DNA from: Prevotella sp.
GTDB lineage: Bacteria; Bacteroidota; Bacteroidia; Bacteroidales; Bacteroidaceae
Direction: 5' to 3'
Assembly: GCA_017541365.1 (NCBI GenBank)
Contig: JAFXZF010000007.1
Span: forward strand, 60,655-124,654
DNA: 64,000 nt
In this document: one piece after another, positions 58,171-60,769 of the stretch
Numbering within the stretch: the first letter of the stretch is position 1
How the letters are laid out: each line of letters begins with the position of its first letter
Translations under genes and position numbers: made by a program
Notes under the pieces: generated by a model
What the model was told of the DNA's origin: nothing
The model's database searches: none
Seen by the model: only the letters and a program-made list of their open reading frames with translations

Positions 58171-58243
<73 letters not shown>

Positions 58244-58277
58244 CCTCAAAGGGGATCAACTTGGTCCCCTTTCTTAT

Positions 58278-58350
58278 GCGGTAATAGCTCAGTTGGTAGA
58301 GCAGCGGCTTCCCAAGCCGCAGGTCGCGGGTTCGAGCCCCGTTTACCGCT
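58278..58350 (+). tRNA. tRNA-Gly (anticodon CCC)
   Basis: Acceptor GCGGTAA pairs with TTACCGC. The anticodon stem GCGGC/GCCGC encloses TTCCCAA, giving anticodon CCC for GGG codons. T arm GCGGG-TTCGAGC-CCCGT. It follows tRNA-Thr by 34 bases and is likely co-transcribed. Confidence 0.95.
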
Positions 58351-58378
58351 CAGCAAAAAACTCTCACCCACAACCTGC

Positions 58379-58437: not shown

Positions 58438-58440
58438 TAA

Positions 58441-58516
58441 AAGTCGCAAAGCGACTACGAAACGCAACCTTGTTGCTACGAAACGGCGCAAGCGCCTACG
58501 AAAACGAAGACGAAAA
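58441..58516 (+). repeat. Variable-stem hairpin array, three units
   Basis: GTCGC-AAA-GCGAC, GCAAC-CTT-GTTGC and GGCGC-AA-GCGCC joined by TACGAAAC and ending in a degenerate ACGAAAACGAAGACG run. It begins right after the tRNA-Gly duplicate. Confidence 0.9.
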
Positions 58517-58624
58517 CGAAAAGCACTACCCTACCCTTGACGTTAAACAATACAACCTCTAAACAAATGTGAAAAATGCGTTAATAATTACTTGTTGTAT
58601 TGATTTGCGTCAATAATATTACAT

Positions 58625-58638
58625 TGTGTGCGCACACA
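58625..58638. promoter_or_regulatory. 14-bp perfect palindrome upstream of the micro-ORF promoter
   Basis: TGTGTGCGCACACA lies 14 bases upstream of the -33 element. It has the form of a dimeric regulator site; the regulator is unknown. The rest of 58520-58650 shows no gene. Confidence 0.45.
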
Positions 58639-58651
58639 GTTTGAATTTTTC

Positions 58652-58682
58652 TTGCACAATATCATAATTCGACGTAACTTTG
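58652..58682 (+). promoter_or_regulatory. Promoter of the micro-ORF transcript
   Basis: TTG at 58652-58654 and TAACTTTG at 58675-58682, spaced 20 bases. The predicted leader to the first micro-ORF is about 140 bases. It can fold into a GTGAG/CTCAC hairpin (about 58708-58734) and a GAACTC/GAGTTC hairpin (about 58748-58784). Confidence 0.65.
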
Positions 58683-58828
58683 CACTCGTGATTTGCAAGA
58701 GCACCGTGAGCCTGCTTGCAGCAGACACTCACTAATCACCACGTGCGAACTCGTTTATCATCGTCAAAAGAAACAAAGAGTTCTTCGACGTAAAAGAGTA
58801 TTAATTAAAAAAAAGAAAGGATTGCATT

Positions 58829-58897
58829 ATGATTAAGAATGTATTGGTTTGGATGGTACAGCATACCCCAATCACTGAGTTCTATGCTGAGGCTTAA
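58829..58897 (+). CDS. Micro-ORF 1, 22-residue peptide
   Basis: Twenty-two codons, ATG to TAA. The peptide begins MIKNVLVWMVQ and ends HTPITEFYAEA. A purine-rich AAAGGA lies 8 bases upstream. It is paired with micro-ORF 2 (59006-59074): 19 of 22 residues are identical, with no insertions or deletions. Six codons differ only at a silent third base, and the stop codon also differs (TAA against TAG). That pattern is what selection on an encoded peptide leaves behind. The hydrophobic first half and polar second half suggest an amphipathic or membrane-associated peptide. I do not recognise a family. Confidence 0.75.
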   Translation: MIKNVLVWMVQHTPITEFYAEA

Positions 58898-58947
58898 GCA
58901 TAAATGCACAGCATATATAGAACGAAAAGGAATATAGAGACGAGAGT

Positions 58948-58974
58948 TTAGTTAGTTTAGTTAGTTTGATTAGT
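58948..58974 (+). repeat. Three tandem 9-bp units between the micro-ORFs
   Basis: TTAGTTAGT, TTAGTTAGT and TTGATTAGT in a row, followed by TAG. Confidence 0.85.
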
Positions 58975-59005
58975 TAGAAATTAGTATTAGGAAAGGGATA
59001 GTATT

Positions 59006-59074
59006 ATGATTAAGAAAGTTTTGATTTGGATGGTAGAACATACCCCCATCACTGAGTTTTATGCGGAAGCATAG
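59006..59074 (+). CDS. Micro-ORF 2, 22-residue peptide
   Basis: Twenty-two codons, ATG to TAG. The peptide begins MIKKVLIWMVE and again ends HTPITEFYAEA. Compared with micro-ORF 1 the amino-acid changes are N4K, V7I and Q11E. A GGAAAGGG sequence lies about 10 bases upstream. It is followed within 32 bases by a strong terminator, so the two peptides appear to be the only products of this transcript. Confidence 0.75.
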   Translation: MIKKVLIWMVEHTPITEFYAEA

Positions 59075-59105
59075 ACTGCAAAACAATGCAAAGTAATCCA
59101 ACCTT

Positions 59106-59151
59106 AAAAAAGGAGTCCTCCCCACAACTGAAGTGGAGAGGACTTTTCTTT
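59106..59151 (+). terminator. Terminator of the micro-ORF transcript
   Basis: AGTCCTCCCCAC pairs with GTGGAGAGGACT (one mismatch) around seven bases, flanked by A-run and TTTTCTTTT. Confidence 0.9.
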
Positions 59152-59155
59152 TAAA

Positions 59156-59226
59156 CTCGCTGCGCGGGTACGAAAACGAAACGCTGCGCTACGAAACGCA
59201 ACTTCGTTGCTACGAAGACGAAAGCG
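59156..59226 (+). repeat. Variable-stem hairpin array, about three units
   Basis: CTCGC-TGC-GCGGG (one mismatch), a weak ACGCTGCGCT unit, and GCAAC-TTC-GTTGC, joined by TACGAAAACGAAAC and TACGAAAC. It ends seven bases before the stop of the convergent rRNA methyltransferase gene. Confidence 0.8.
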
Positions 59227-59233
59227 ATTACTG

Positions 59234-60769
59234 CTATGATATTCTCGCCTCGAGCAGGACAACATTCTCCACATGGGGGGTGTGGGGGAACATATCGACT
59301 GGCTGCACTCGCTTAACCTTGTAGTCGGAGTCAAGGAGTTGCAGATCGCGTGCCTGGGTGGCAGGATTGCAACTGACATAGACGATACGCTGGGGGTGGG
59401 CATTCATTATCACCTTCACTACGTCGGGATGCATGCCTGCACGGGGCGGGTCGGTAATGATGACATCTGGCTGACCATGCTCTGCAATAAACTCGTCTTT
59501 GAGAATGTCCTTCATGTCGCCAGCATAGAAAAGGGTGTTGCTTATGCCATTGACCTCCGAGTTTATCTTAGCATCCTCTATGGCATCCTCAACATACTCT
59601 ATACCAACGACTTGCTTAGCACGACGGGCTACGAAATTAGCTATGGTGCCTGTACCGGTGTAGAGGTCATAGACGAGTTCGGAACCCGTGAGTCCGGCAA
59701 AGTCGCGTGCCACCTCATATAGATGCTGCGCCTGCTCGGTGTTGGTCTGGTAGAACGACTTGGGACGTACCTTGAAGCGCAGGTCCTCCATGTGAAGGTA
59801 TATATGATCGTCGCCTTTGAAAAGGCGTACGTCGAGGTCGCCGAAGGTATCGTTGCACTTAGGGTTGTACACCCACATGAGTGAGGTAATCTGTGGGAAC
59901 TTATCGGCAACATACTGTAGGAGAGCCATCGCCGCATCCTTGTCGAAATGCTTCTGCTCGCGTATTTCCCTTTCCAGCGCCTCCTTTCTTAACTGCTTGG
60001 GAGACACCTCTCCCCTCGCCTCTTGGGGAGGGGAAGGGGGTGAGGCCACTGGTCCAAACTGCACCAGCAACATCCACTCACCAGAGTTGCTACACCTTAT
60101 TATAATATCGCGCAGGAGACCTACCTGACCGCGAAGGTCGAAGAACGAAAGACCGTGCTCCAAGGCGTACTGATAGATAGAGTTGCGTATATCATTATGC
60201 AAGTCGTCCATCAGCAAGCATTTCTCTATGGGCAGAATCTTGTCGAAGGCACCAGTAATGTGAAAGCCTATGCCTGGCTCCTTCAGTCCTTCACCCTCTG
60301 GCAGTTGGCTCAGCTGTTCCCTTGTGTACCAACGTTTGTTGCAGCATCCGAAGTCAAGTTTGTTGCGATATTCGAAAGTCTTCACGCTACCCTTGATGGG
60401 CAGGAACTTTGGGAGTTCTATCTTGCCTATACGAGTGAGCTGGTCGAACACCTGTTGCTGCTTGAAAGCGAGTTGGTCTTCGTAGGGCATATTCTGCCAC
60501 TTACAACCTCCGCATACGCCGAAATGCTGACACGGGGGAGTGATACGCCTGGGACTGGGCTTGACGAGGCGAACCACCTCGCCCTCGGCAAAGGAGTGCT
60601 TCTTGCGGGTGATCTGCACATCCACCACATCGCCAGGCACGCAGAAGGGCACGAAAACGACGAGAGAGGGATGTTGCTCGGAAGCTGTAGCCATGTGGAA
60701 GAGACACTTGCCCTCAGCGGCAACTGCCTCTATAACGACATTCTGTAAAAGGGAGAGTTTTTTTTTCAA
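59234..60769 (-). CDS. rlmD: 23S rRNA (uracil-5-)-methyltransferase, RlmD/RumA type
   Basis: A 511-residue SAM-dependent enzyme. The N-terminal TRAM domain is followed by an iron-sulfur site (CQHFGVCGGCKWQNMPYEDQ). The methyltransferase core has DLYTGTGTIANFVARRAKQV, ITDPPRAGMHPDVV and the catalytic Cys in YVSCNPATQARDLQLL. It methylates U in 23S rRNA; RlmD against RlmC cannot be separated with certainty. An in-frame insert, ASPPSPPQEARGEVSP (about residues 247-262), is encoded by a C/G-rich palindromic repeat at about 60001-60047. Confidence 0.9.
   Translation of the reverse strand: MKKKLSLLQNVVIEAVAAEGKCLFHMATASEQHPSLVVFVPFCVPGDVVDVQITRKKHSFAEGEVVRLVKPSPRRITPPCQHFGVCGGCKWQNMPYEDQLAFKQQQVFDQLTRIGKIELPKFLPIKGSVKTFEYRNKLDFGCCNKRWYTREQLSQLPEGEGLKEPGIGFHITGAFDKILPIEKCLLMDDLHNDIRNSIYQYALEHGLSFFDLRGQVGLLRDIIIRCSNSGEWMLLVQFGPVASPPSPPQEARGEVSPKQLRKEALEREIREQKHFDKDAAMALLQYVADKFPQITSLMWVYNPKCNDTFGDLDVRLFKGDDHIYLHMEDLRFKVRPKSFYQTNTEQAQHLYEVARDFAGLTGSELVYDLYTGTGTIANFVARRAKQVVGIEYVEDAIEDAKINSEVNGISNTLFYAGDMKDILKDEFIAEHGQPDVIITDPPRAGMHPDVVKVIMNAHPQRIVYVSCNPATQARDLQLLDSDYKVKRVQPVDMFPHTPHVENVVLLEARIS

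Follow-up and report, generated by a model that had tools for sequence, protein, structure and literature searches.

Proteins as short as 22 residues are missed by most genome annotation. Tandem genes for very short peptides are known from enterobacteria in the form of the type I toxin genes Ibs/Sib and Ldr, and sites of the FNR/CRP type in Escherichia coli have the symmetry and size of the Crp/Fnr family. For the Bacteroidetes, a study lists small-ORF candidates in Bacteroides thetaiotaomicron (PMC7366714). The locus described here, a pair of 22-codon ORFs within a 64,000-nucleotide stretch of Prevotella DNA that we analyzed as a whole (the window), resembles bacterial small-ORF genes, including those candidates, in its short conserved frame, its own transcript and its signature of coding selection, but differs from them in having one mRNA with two cistrons of nearly the same sequence, a promoter with two palindromes and no relation to the families that we searched. 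With Ibs/Sib and Ldr it shares tandem copies of very short peptides, whereas it has neither a consensus antisense promoter nor a membrane-spanning segment and occupies one chromosomal site. Its promoter palindromes, TTGAY-n4-RTCAA and TTGTG-n6-CACAA, share the symmetry and size of E. coli FNR/CRP sites, but here two different palindromes stand at fixed spacing in front of a Bacteroidetes promoter, and the shape of the sites points to a putative regulator of that family. Finally, microproteins of 30–33 amino acids in other Prevotella are alike in promoter type, own terminator and similar leader, but have one ORF per transcript instead of two and show no homology to the twin peptides by profile comparison. 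The locus is of a familiar kind, a bacterial small-protein gene; what is new to us is its arrangement as twins, together with the promoter group. The best explanation of our results is probably that it is a real, autonomous two-cistron microprotein gene, with the promoter group and mechanism set out below.

An earlier, sequence-only reading of the window had described two ATG frames of 22 codons lying 108 bases apart, with 19 of 22 residues shared, six codons that differ only silently and different stops, and we found its coordinates, translations and counts to be correct; the 10 nucleotide differences in sense codons include three residue changes (Table 1). The strong terminator that it placed after the second frame is also there, as a hairpin with a U-rich tail, and a similar hairpin lies 3′ of ORF 2 in all five other twin loci. 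Its promoter before the first frame has a Bacteroidetes-type -7 box but is more elaborate than had been noticed, with two palindromes upstream, and the flanking DNA that it called largely unrelated is not wholly so, being alike in the ~15 nucleotides directly 5′ of the two ATGs. The transcript start at 58689 was deduced from the -7 box.

Table 1. Features of the twin locus, in window coordinates.
Feature	Position	Strand	Remarks
tRNA-Thr(CGT) and tRNA-Gly(CCC)	58171..58351	+	Upstream neighbours in 6/6 twin loci
Fnr-like palindrome TTGATTTGCGTCAA	58600..58613	+	Centre 25 bp before centre of second palindrome
Second palindrome TTGTGTGCGCACACAG, core TGTGTGCGCACACA	58624..58639	+	TTGTGTGCGCACACAA type
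Core promoter: TTGCAC (-33-like) and -7 box TAACTTTG (58675-58682)	58652..58682	+	Bacteroidetes type
Predicted transcript, ~465 nt	58689..59153	+	Leader, ORF 1, spacer with TTAGTTAG runs, ORF 2, terminator
ORF 1, MIKNVLVWMVQHTPITEFYAEA	58829..58897	+	ATG frame, 22 codons, stop TAA
ORF 2, MIKKVLIWMVEHTPITEFYAEA	59006..59074	+	ATG frame, 22 codons, stop TAG
Intrinsic terminator: hairpin and U-rich tail	~59105..59153	+	Folding z = -5.0
rlmD-like (uracil-5)-methyltransferase gene	59234..60769	-	Convergent downstream neighbour in 6/6 twin loci

The rlmD-like gene, the Bacteroidetes-type promoter and relatives named Prevotella or Prevotellaceae mark the window as part of a Prevotella-like genome. 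An Rfam scan of the window returned tRNAs and no other RNA family. Neither 22-mer matched a Pfam or NCBIfam family at E <= 10, nor did one 24-residue relative at E <= 1. The peptides have a mean hydrophobicity of 0.2–0.3, a single run of 6–7 hydrophobic residues, an acidic end and weak to modest amphipathicity (best 11-residue moment ~0.4).

The protein database search accepts no query under 40 residues, and relatives were sought in genome contigs. Scanning contigs for the pattern TPITEFYA gave seven stretches, six of them in five Prevotella or Prevotellaceae MAGs and one in Arsenophonus; the latter, having no ATG frame, was rejected as a homologue. A profile search then found two copies in each of the five MAGs (an extra match in genome G001 at E = 1 was treated as chance). 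In a draw of 398 genomes of the genus of G001, six had a match at E <= 0.01, namely four of the five MAGs (the fifth lay outside the draw) and two new genomes, G173 and G361, each with one diverged 24-codon copy (MIKKVLVWMVYHTPVVEPSYYARA and MIKKVLVWMVCHTPVVDPSYYARA, respectively) at a chromosomal place other than the twin locus. Relatives are therefore known from seven other Prevotella-group genomes, five with a tandem pair and two with a single 24-codon copy, and several of these carriers come from ruminants. Whether copies always come in tandem was a check that the sequence-only reading had proposed: they do so in six of the eight loci and are single in the other two. All six tandem pairs, including that of the window, lie between tRNA-Thr/tRNA-Gly and rlmD, at one chromosomal site.

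A second genus draw of 299 genomes, searched with an enlarged profile, gave six genomes with matches at E <= 0.02, five of them known and one weak (G047, E = 0.018), the last with no stand-alone 22–24-codon frame of the twin-peptide kind. At the family level, 27 of 399 genomes matched at E <= 0.1, G001 being the known one; among the 28 weak matches from the other 26 genomes (E at least 0.0036; 8 to 15 residues), 27 likewise had no such frame and one (L046) was misplaced. With matches in six of 398 genus genomes and no true frame among the weak ones, the peptide family is rare as judged by profile searches, an estimate that strongly diverged members could escape. Plasmid and phage collections searched by DNA, and plasmids searched also by protein, returned only rlmD, tRNA and short chance matches; one pattern run against viral contigs gave zero matches, and among the papers listed from the open-licence PMC literature there was nothing on the twin-peptide locus, its peptide strings or its palindrome strings.

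Comparison of these copies indicates that both 22-codon frames are evidently preserved as protein by purifying selection, with the peptides as the likely product. The frame was intact in all 14 copies found at the eight loci, including the 24-codon form, which is exactly two codons longer, in a survey able to reveal stop codons, although a copy with a frameshift might have escaped it. The proposal of the sequence-only reading that the peptides are what the transcript makes is thus supported, with homologues at the protein level and no broken frame among the copies found. Across the twelve 22-codon copies (six loci), 4, 3 and 13 of 22 sites vary at codon positions 1, 2 and 3, respectively. The dN/dS comparison that it had suggested gave values of 0.06 to 0.22 between the twins of the six loci (window and G001, 0.06; G005, 0.13; G002 and G003, 0.15; G004, 0.22). 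When an equal number of random changes was placed on the first ORF, stops excluded, three or fewer residue changes arose in 0.35% of 4000 simulations for the window twins, and the observed conservation was reached in 0.45% of simulations for the twins of G001, 0.38% for those of G002 and of G003, 3.8% for G005 and 22% for G004. Over 16 pairwise simulations, 11 gave P < 0.05 and three did not (the G004 twins, 0.22; window against G002, first copies, 0.28; window against G005, first copies, 0.08), the remaining two being identical and hence uninformative pairs (window and G001). RlmD proteins of the same genomes are 81–91% identical to that of the window.

At residue 4, every first copy has N and every second copy has K (six of each), a split by copy which implies that the duplication predates these species. 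Across loci, 31–144 nucleotides separate the -7 box region from the first ATG and the spacer between the twins measures 82–131 nucleotides, and neither the ORFs (z = 0.70 and -1.06) nor the spacer (z = 1.27) folded notably better than shuffled sequences. Together, the intact frames, the third-position bias and the varying leader and spacer lengths make the peptides rather than the RNA look like the product. For a protein of 22 residues this coding signature, drawn from several species with two old copies each, is unusually clear.

Upstream of the core promoter lie the two palindromes. We call the first Fnr-like on the assumption that the FNR box is TTGAT-N4-ATCAA; over the eight loci it reads approximately TTGAY-n4-RTCAA, two of the eight beginning with CTGA. 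The second is of the TTGTGT[G/A]CGCACACAA type throughout. The Fnr-like palindrome, the second palindrome and TA[A/C]CTTTGCA align ungapped in 8/8 loci, with the centre of the second palindrome always 43 nucleotides before the -7 box (TAnCTTTG), placing a palindromic site of Crp/Fnr-family shape at a fixed promoter distance in every locus. The -7 consensus of Bacteroidetes-type promoters is TAnnTTTG (PMC7366714).

Scanning seven genomes for the second palindrome with one mismatch allowed gave 18 places, two to four per genome, of which seven were the peptide loci; nine of the 11 others were read, two in G002 being left out. The palindrome preceded a 31-amino-acid ORF at two of these places (L057, L059) and a transcript with no visible ORF at two more (L056, L061), and the others lay near what we take to be mtaB-like genes (L049, L058, L060, L064) and a ruvB-like gene (L062). 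At L057 and L059, which belong to G173 and G361, the palindrome stands directly 5′ of TAATTTTGCA, its gap to the -7 box is much shorter than at the peptide loci, and the 31-codon ORF that follows reads MIMFTNVAMMIMVSMVGVSTICGC.SLMHQK. At L056 and L061 (3-kb loci of G004 and G001), palindromes of this type, together with an Fnr-like box and a TACCTTTG box, precede a short transcript that carries a TTTAGGTTAGTAGA-like sequence twice and in which we saw no ORF by eye; it lies near what are presumably genes for an ABC-type ATPase and for an amidotransferase-like protein of purine biosynthesis. This transcript is possibly a noncoding member of the promoter group.

We then searched the genus with R1, a sequence-only model of the 91-nucleotide promoter block. 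At E <= 0.01, R1 matched in 383 of 398 genomes (10 candidates scored per genome) and R2, a control made by reversing the same alignment, in one of 100 (43 candidates scored per genome), the E-values of both models being rough; because R1 also rewards ordinary core-promoter letters, the two-palindrome class itself would be present in at most 383 of the 398. In the seven peptide genomes a full-strength match stood only before the peptide gene and the remaining matches were weak, and with one full-strength match per genome we infer co-regulation across species rather than see it within any one of them.

Reading the 84 top-ranked non-peptide matches (24 loci and 60 stretches; one between them, in G167, was left out) and assigning the genes behind them by sequence search showed that 66 precede a protein of ~120 amino acids, 11 a microprotein of 30–33 amino acids, two a hydrophobic peptide of 34 amino acids and three a protein that we label porin-like. 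The last two were unassigned, one of them on a contig that ends just after codons resembling the ~120-amino-acid class. Thus 82 of the 84 stand before a gene of one of these four kinds, which is short in 79 cases, and because R1 holds no coding sequence, the agreement on downstream genes is independent support. Of the 82 loci whose -7 box was recognised, 80 had the second palindrome (up to three mismatches) 42–46 nucleotides from that box and 77 had an Fnr-like box (up to one mismatch) a further 22–25 nucleotides away, counts that are descriptive rather than proof because R1 had selected these loci.

The ~120-amino-acid family has a signal-peptide-like start and 590 relatives in the protein database at E <= 0.001; among the 120 relatives listed, most are unnamed and none has a Pfam domain. 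Of 150 genus genomes, 109 had a member at E <= 0.001 (G097 and G102 had weak matches only, and G001 and G003 were among the misses), and none of the seven peptide genomes had one in a search that found both positive controls; because these seven genomes are related, the absence may represent one or two losses. What we took to be LTxxQ-like motifs had prompted the idea of a Spy/CpxP-like role, which was unsupported: the predicted structure (mean pLDDT 74) had no PDB match at E <= 0.001, and there was no Pfam match above the cut-off.

The 30–33-amino-acid family, of the KKLINKWLKSEAYTEYCLNMARLYNYRAAN / MKKLINKWLKSEAYTEYCLNMARLYNYRAAN type (L071, L094, L099, L107, L110, L120, L123, L127, L137, L139, L150), consists of single ORFs, each followed by a hairpin that resembles a terminator; in the member for which amphipathicity was computed, an N-terminal stretch is strongly amphipathic. 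A search of 10 genomes found it clearly in G251 and weakly in three (E 0.04–0.09); two of these three, the twin genomes G004 (E = 0.075) and G005 (E = 0.042), were judged to match by chance, leaving no clear match in the seven peptide genomes. Homology of this family to the twin peptides was rejected (hhalign probability 2%). The 34-residue peptides (L121, L124) are of the MIASMITLMKIGALLLAGTLFSAWMAKHDNLEVR type, and their last codons seem to enter the terminator hairpin.

Given the shared promoter, our reading is that the twin gene belongs to this group as a member specific to one lineage. A wider reading, which we put forward tentatively and lean somewhat against, is that of a promoter-defined micro-gene regulon of Prevotella: one promoter type, an Fnr-like box with a TTGTGTGCGCACACAA palindrome, would drive unrelated microprotein families of 22 to 34 residues and a putatively secreted protein of ~120 amino acids, with lineages keeping different members and the twin 22-mers belonging to one lineage, possibly derived from a truncated member. 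If that is true, the regulon would act as a source of new microproteins. The shared promoter in any case suggests a way of finding further Prevotella micro-genes by promoter instead of by ORF, and it offers a handle on function in that it names possible co-regulated partners and indicates which signal to expect (redox or growth state, of the Crp/Fnr type).

One specific origin would make the peptides a truncated, duplicated paralogue of the signal-peptide region of the ~120-amino-acid family that gained a role of its own. The two share their promoter type, and many of the leaders read have AAAGAAAGG 8–9 nucleotides before the ATG, as the window does. Scored ungapped against N-termini of the family (19 of the 56 distinct ones, a few from the porin-like class), MIKKVLIWMVEHTPITEFYAEA beat full shuffles (0/150 did as well) and reached a mean of 25.3 against 20.2 for shuffles of its tail (P = 0.02); tail P values were 0.047, 0.047 and 0.13 for three other twin-type peptides but 0.78 for the diverged 24-residue form, and two unrelated N-termini among 301 exceeded the mean of the family (five more that did so were members missed by the filter). 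Profile comparison, moreover, finds no relation (probability 0.5%). The distribution of the family, in 0/7 peptide genomes against 109/150 of the genus, speaks for such an origin, but may reflect the one or two losses mentioned above. Among 31 loci with the larger family or its promoter (~3 kb each, overlapping in some cases), none contains rlmD, a tRNA or the methyltransferase gene that neighbours the 24-codon copy, and the idea that the peptide gene occupies the site of the ~120-amino-acid gene in other genomes was rejected on this count (0/31). We consider this origin unlikely.

We give still less credence to type I toxin peptides restrained by an antisense RNA, a toxin-like role having been among those suggested by the sequence-only reading. 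Very short, near-identical tandem ORFs on a transcript of their own do recall the enterobacterial toxins. However, in a check for -33/-7 consensus promoters, five of the eight loci had no antisense TAnnTTTG box from -330 to +420 nucleotides around the first ATG, and in the other three the box lay 128–165 nucleotides upstream of that ATG, pointed away from it and had no -33 partner, so that both elements were found together in 0/8 loci and the suggestion gained no support. The hydrophobic run of 6–7 residues is also too short to span a membrane, the end of the peptides is acidic, and the twin locus stays at a single chromosomal site (6/6).

Runs resembling TTAGTTAG bear on a further alternative, a regulatory small RNA with incidental ORFs or a dual-function RNA whose TTAGTTAG-rich spacer is active. 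Such runs occur in twin-locus spacers, downstream of the lone ORF of G173 and of G361, and in the leaders of some genes for 30–33-amino-acid microproteins (L110, L137, L139), so that the element recurs in leaders and spacers of several transcripts of the promoter class, and two genomes have the related transcript with no visible ORF (L056, L061). With one mismatch allowed, TTAGTTAGTTWG matched twice in the window, both times at this locus, against 0.46 matches expected; seven of 100 shuffles reached two. Against an RNA as the product stand the silent-biased substitutions and intact frames, the varying lengths of leader and spacer, the ordinary folding of the ORFs and the absence of any Rfam family but tRNA from the window, and we regard this alternative as very improbable. 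Runs of a TTAGTTAGTTAG-like kind were also seen at 58940-58975 of the window and in spacers or leaders at L001, L003, L005, L007, L011, L110, L137 and L139. That the ORFs, short and placed after a promoter, are leader peptides controlling a downstream gene by attenuation is scarcely credible, given the terminator and then convergent rlmD in 6/6 twin loci, with no same-strand gene to regulate, and peptides with no run of one amino acid.

For the two-cistron microprotein gene that we favor, the following mechanism can be proposed. Transcription would begin at a Bacteroidetes-type promoter whose two palindromes at fixed spacing, one of them Fnr-like, are candidate binding sites by comparison among loci, the genus apparently placing this promoter type before a group of short genes, mostly that of the ~120-amino-acid protein. 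The step beyond this is possible but on the whole unlikely to be right in full. A regulator of the Crp/Fnr type, as the symmetry of such sites suggests, would switch the twin gene on in certain redox or growth states, and both peptides would be made from the single mRNA and kept inside the cell. There the short hydrophobic N-terminal segment VLIWMV might contact the inner membrane, which the weak amphipathicity makes a mere guess, while the conserved HTPITEFYAEA end would be offered to a protein partner; the two copies could serve dosage or form a heteromeric pair.

On both sides of the twin locus, at 58440-58530 and 59150-59230 of the window, are short CTACGAAACG/ACGAAAACGAAA-type repeats. 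They are present also at L001, L005 and L011 and resemble dispersed intergenic repeats.
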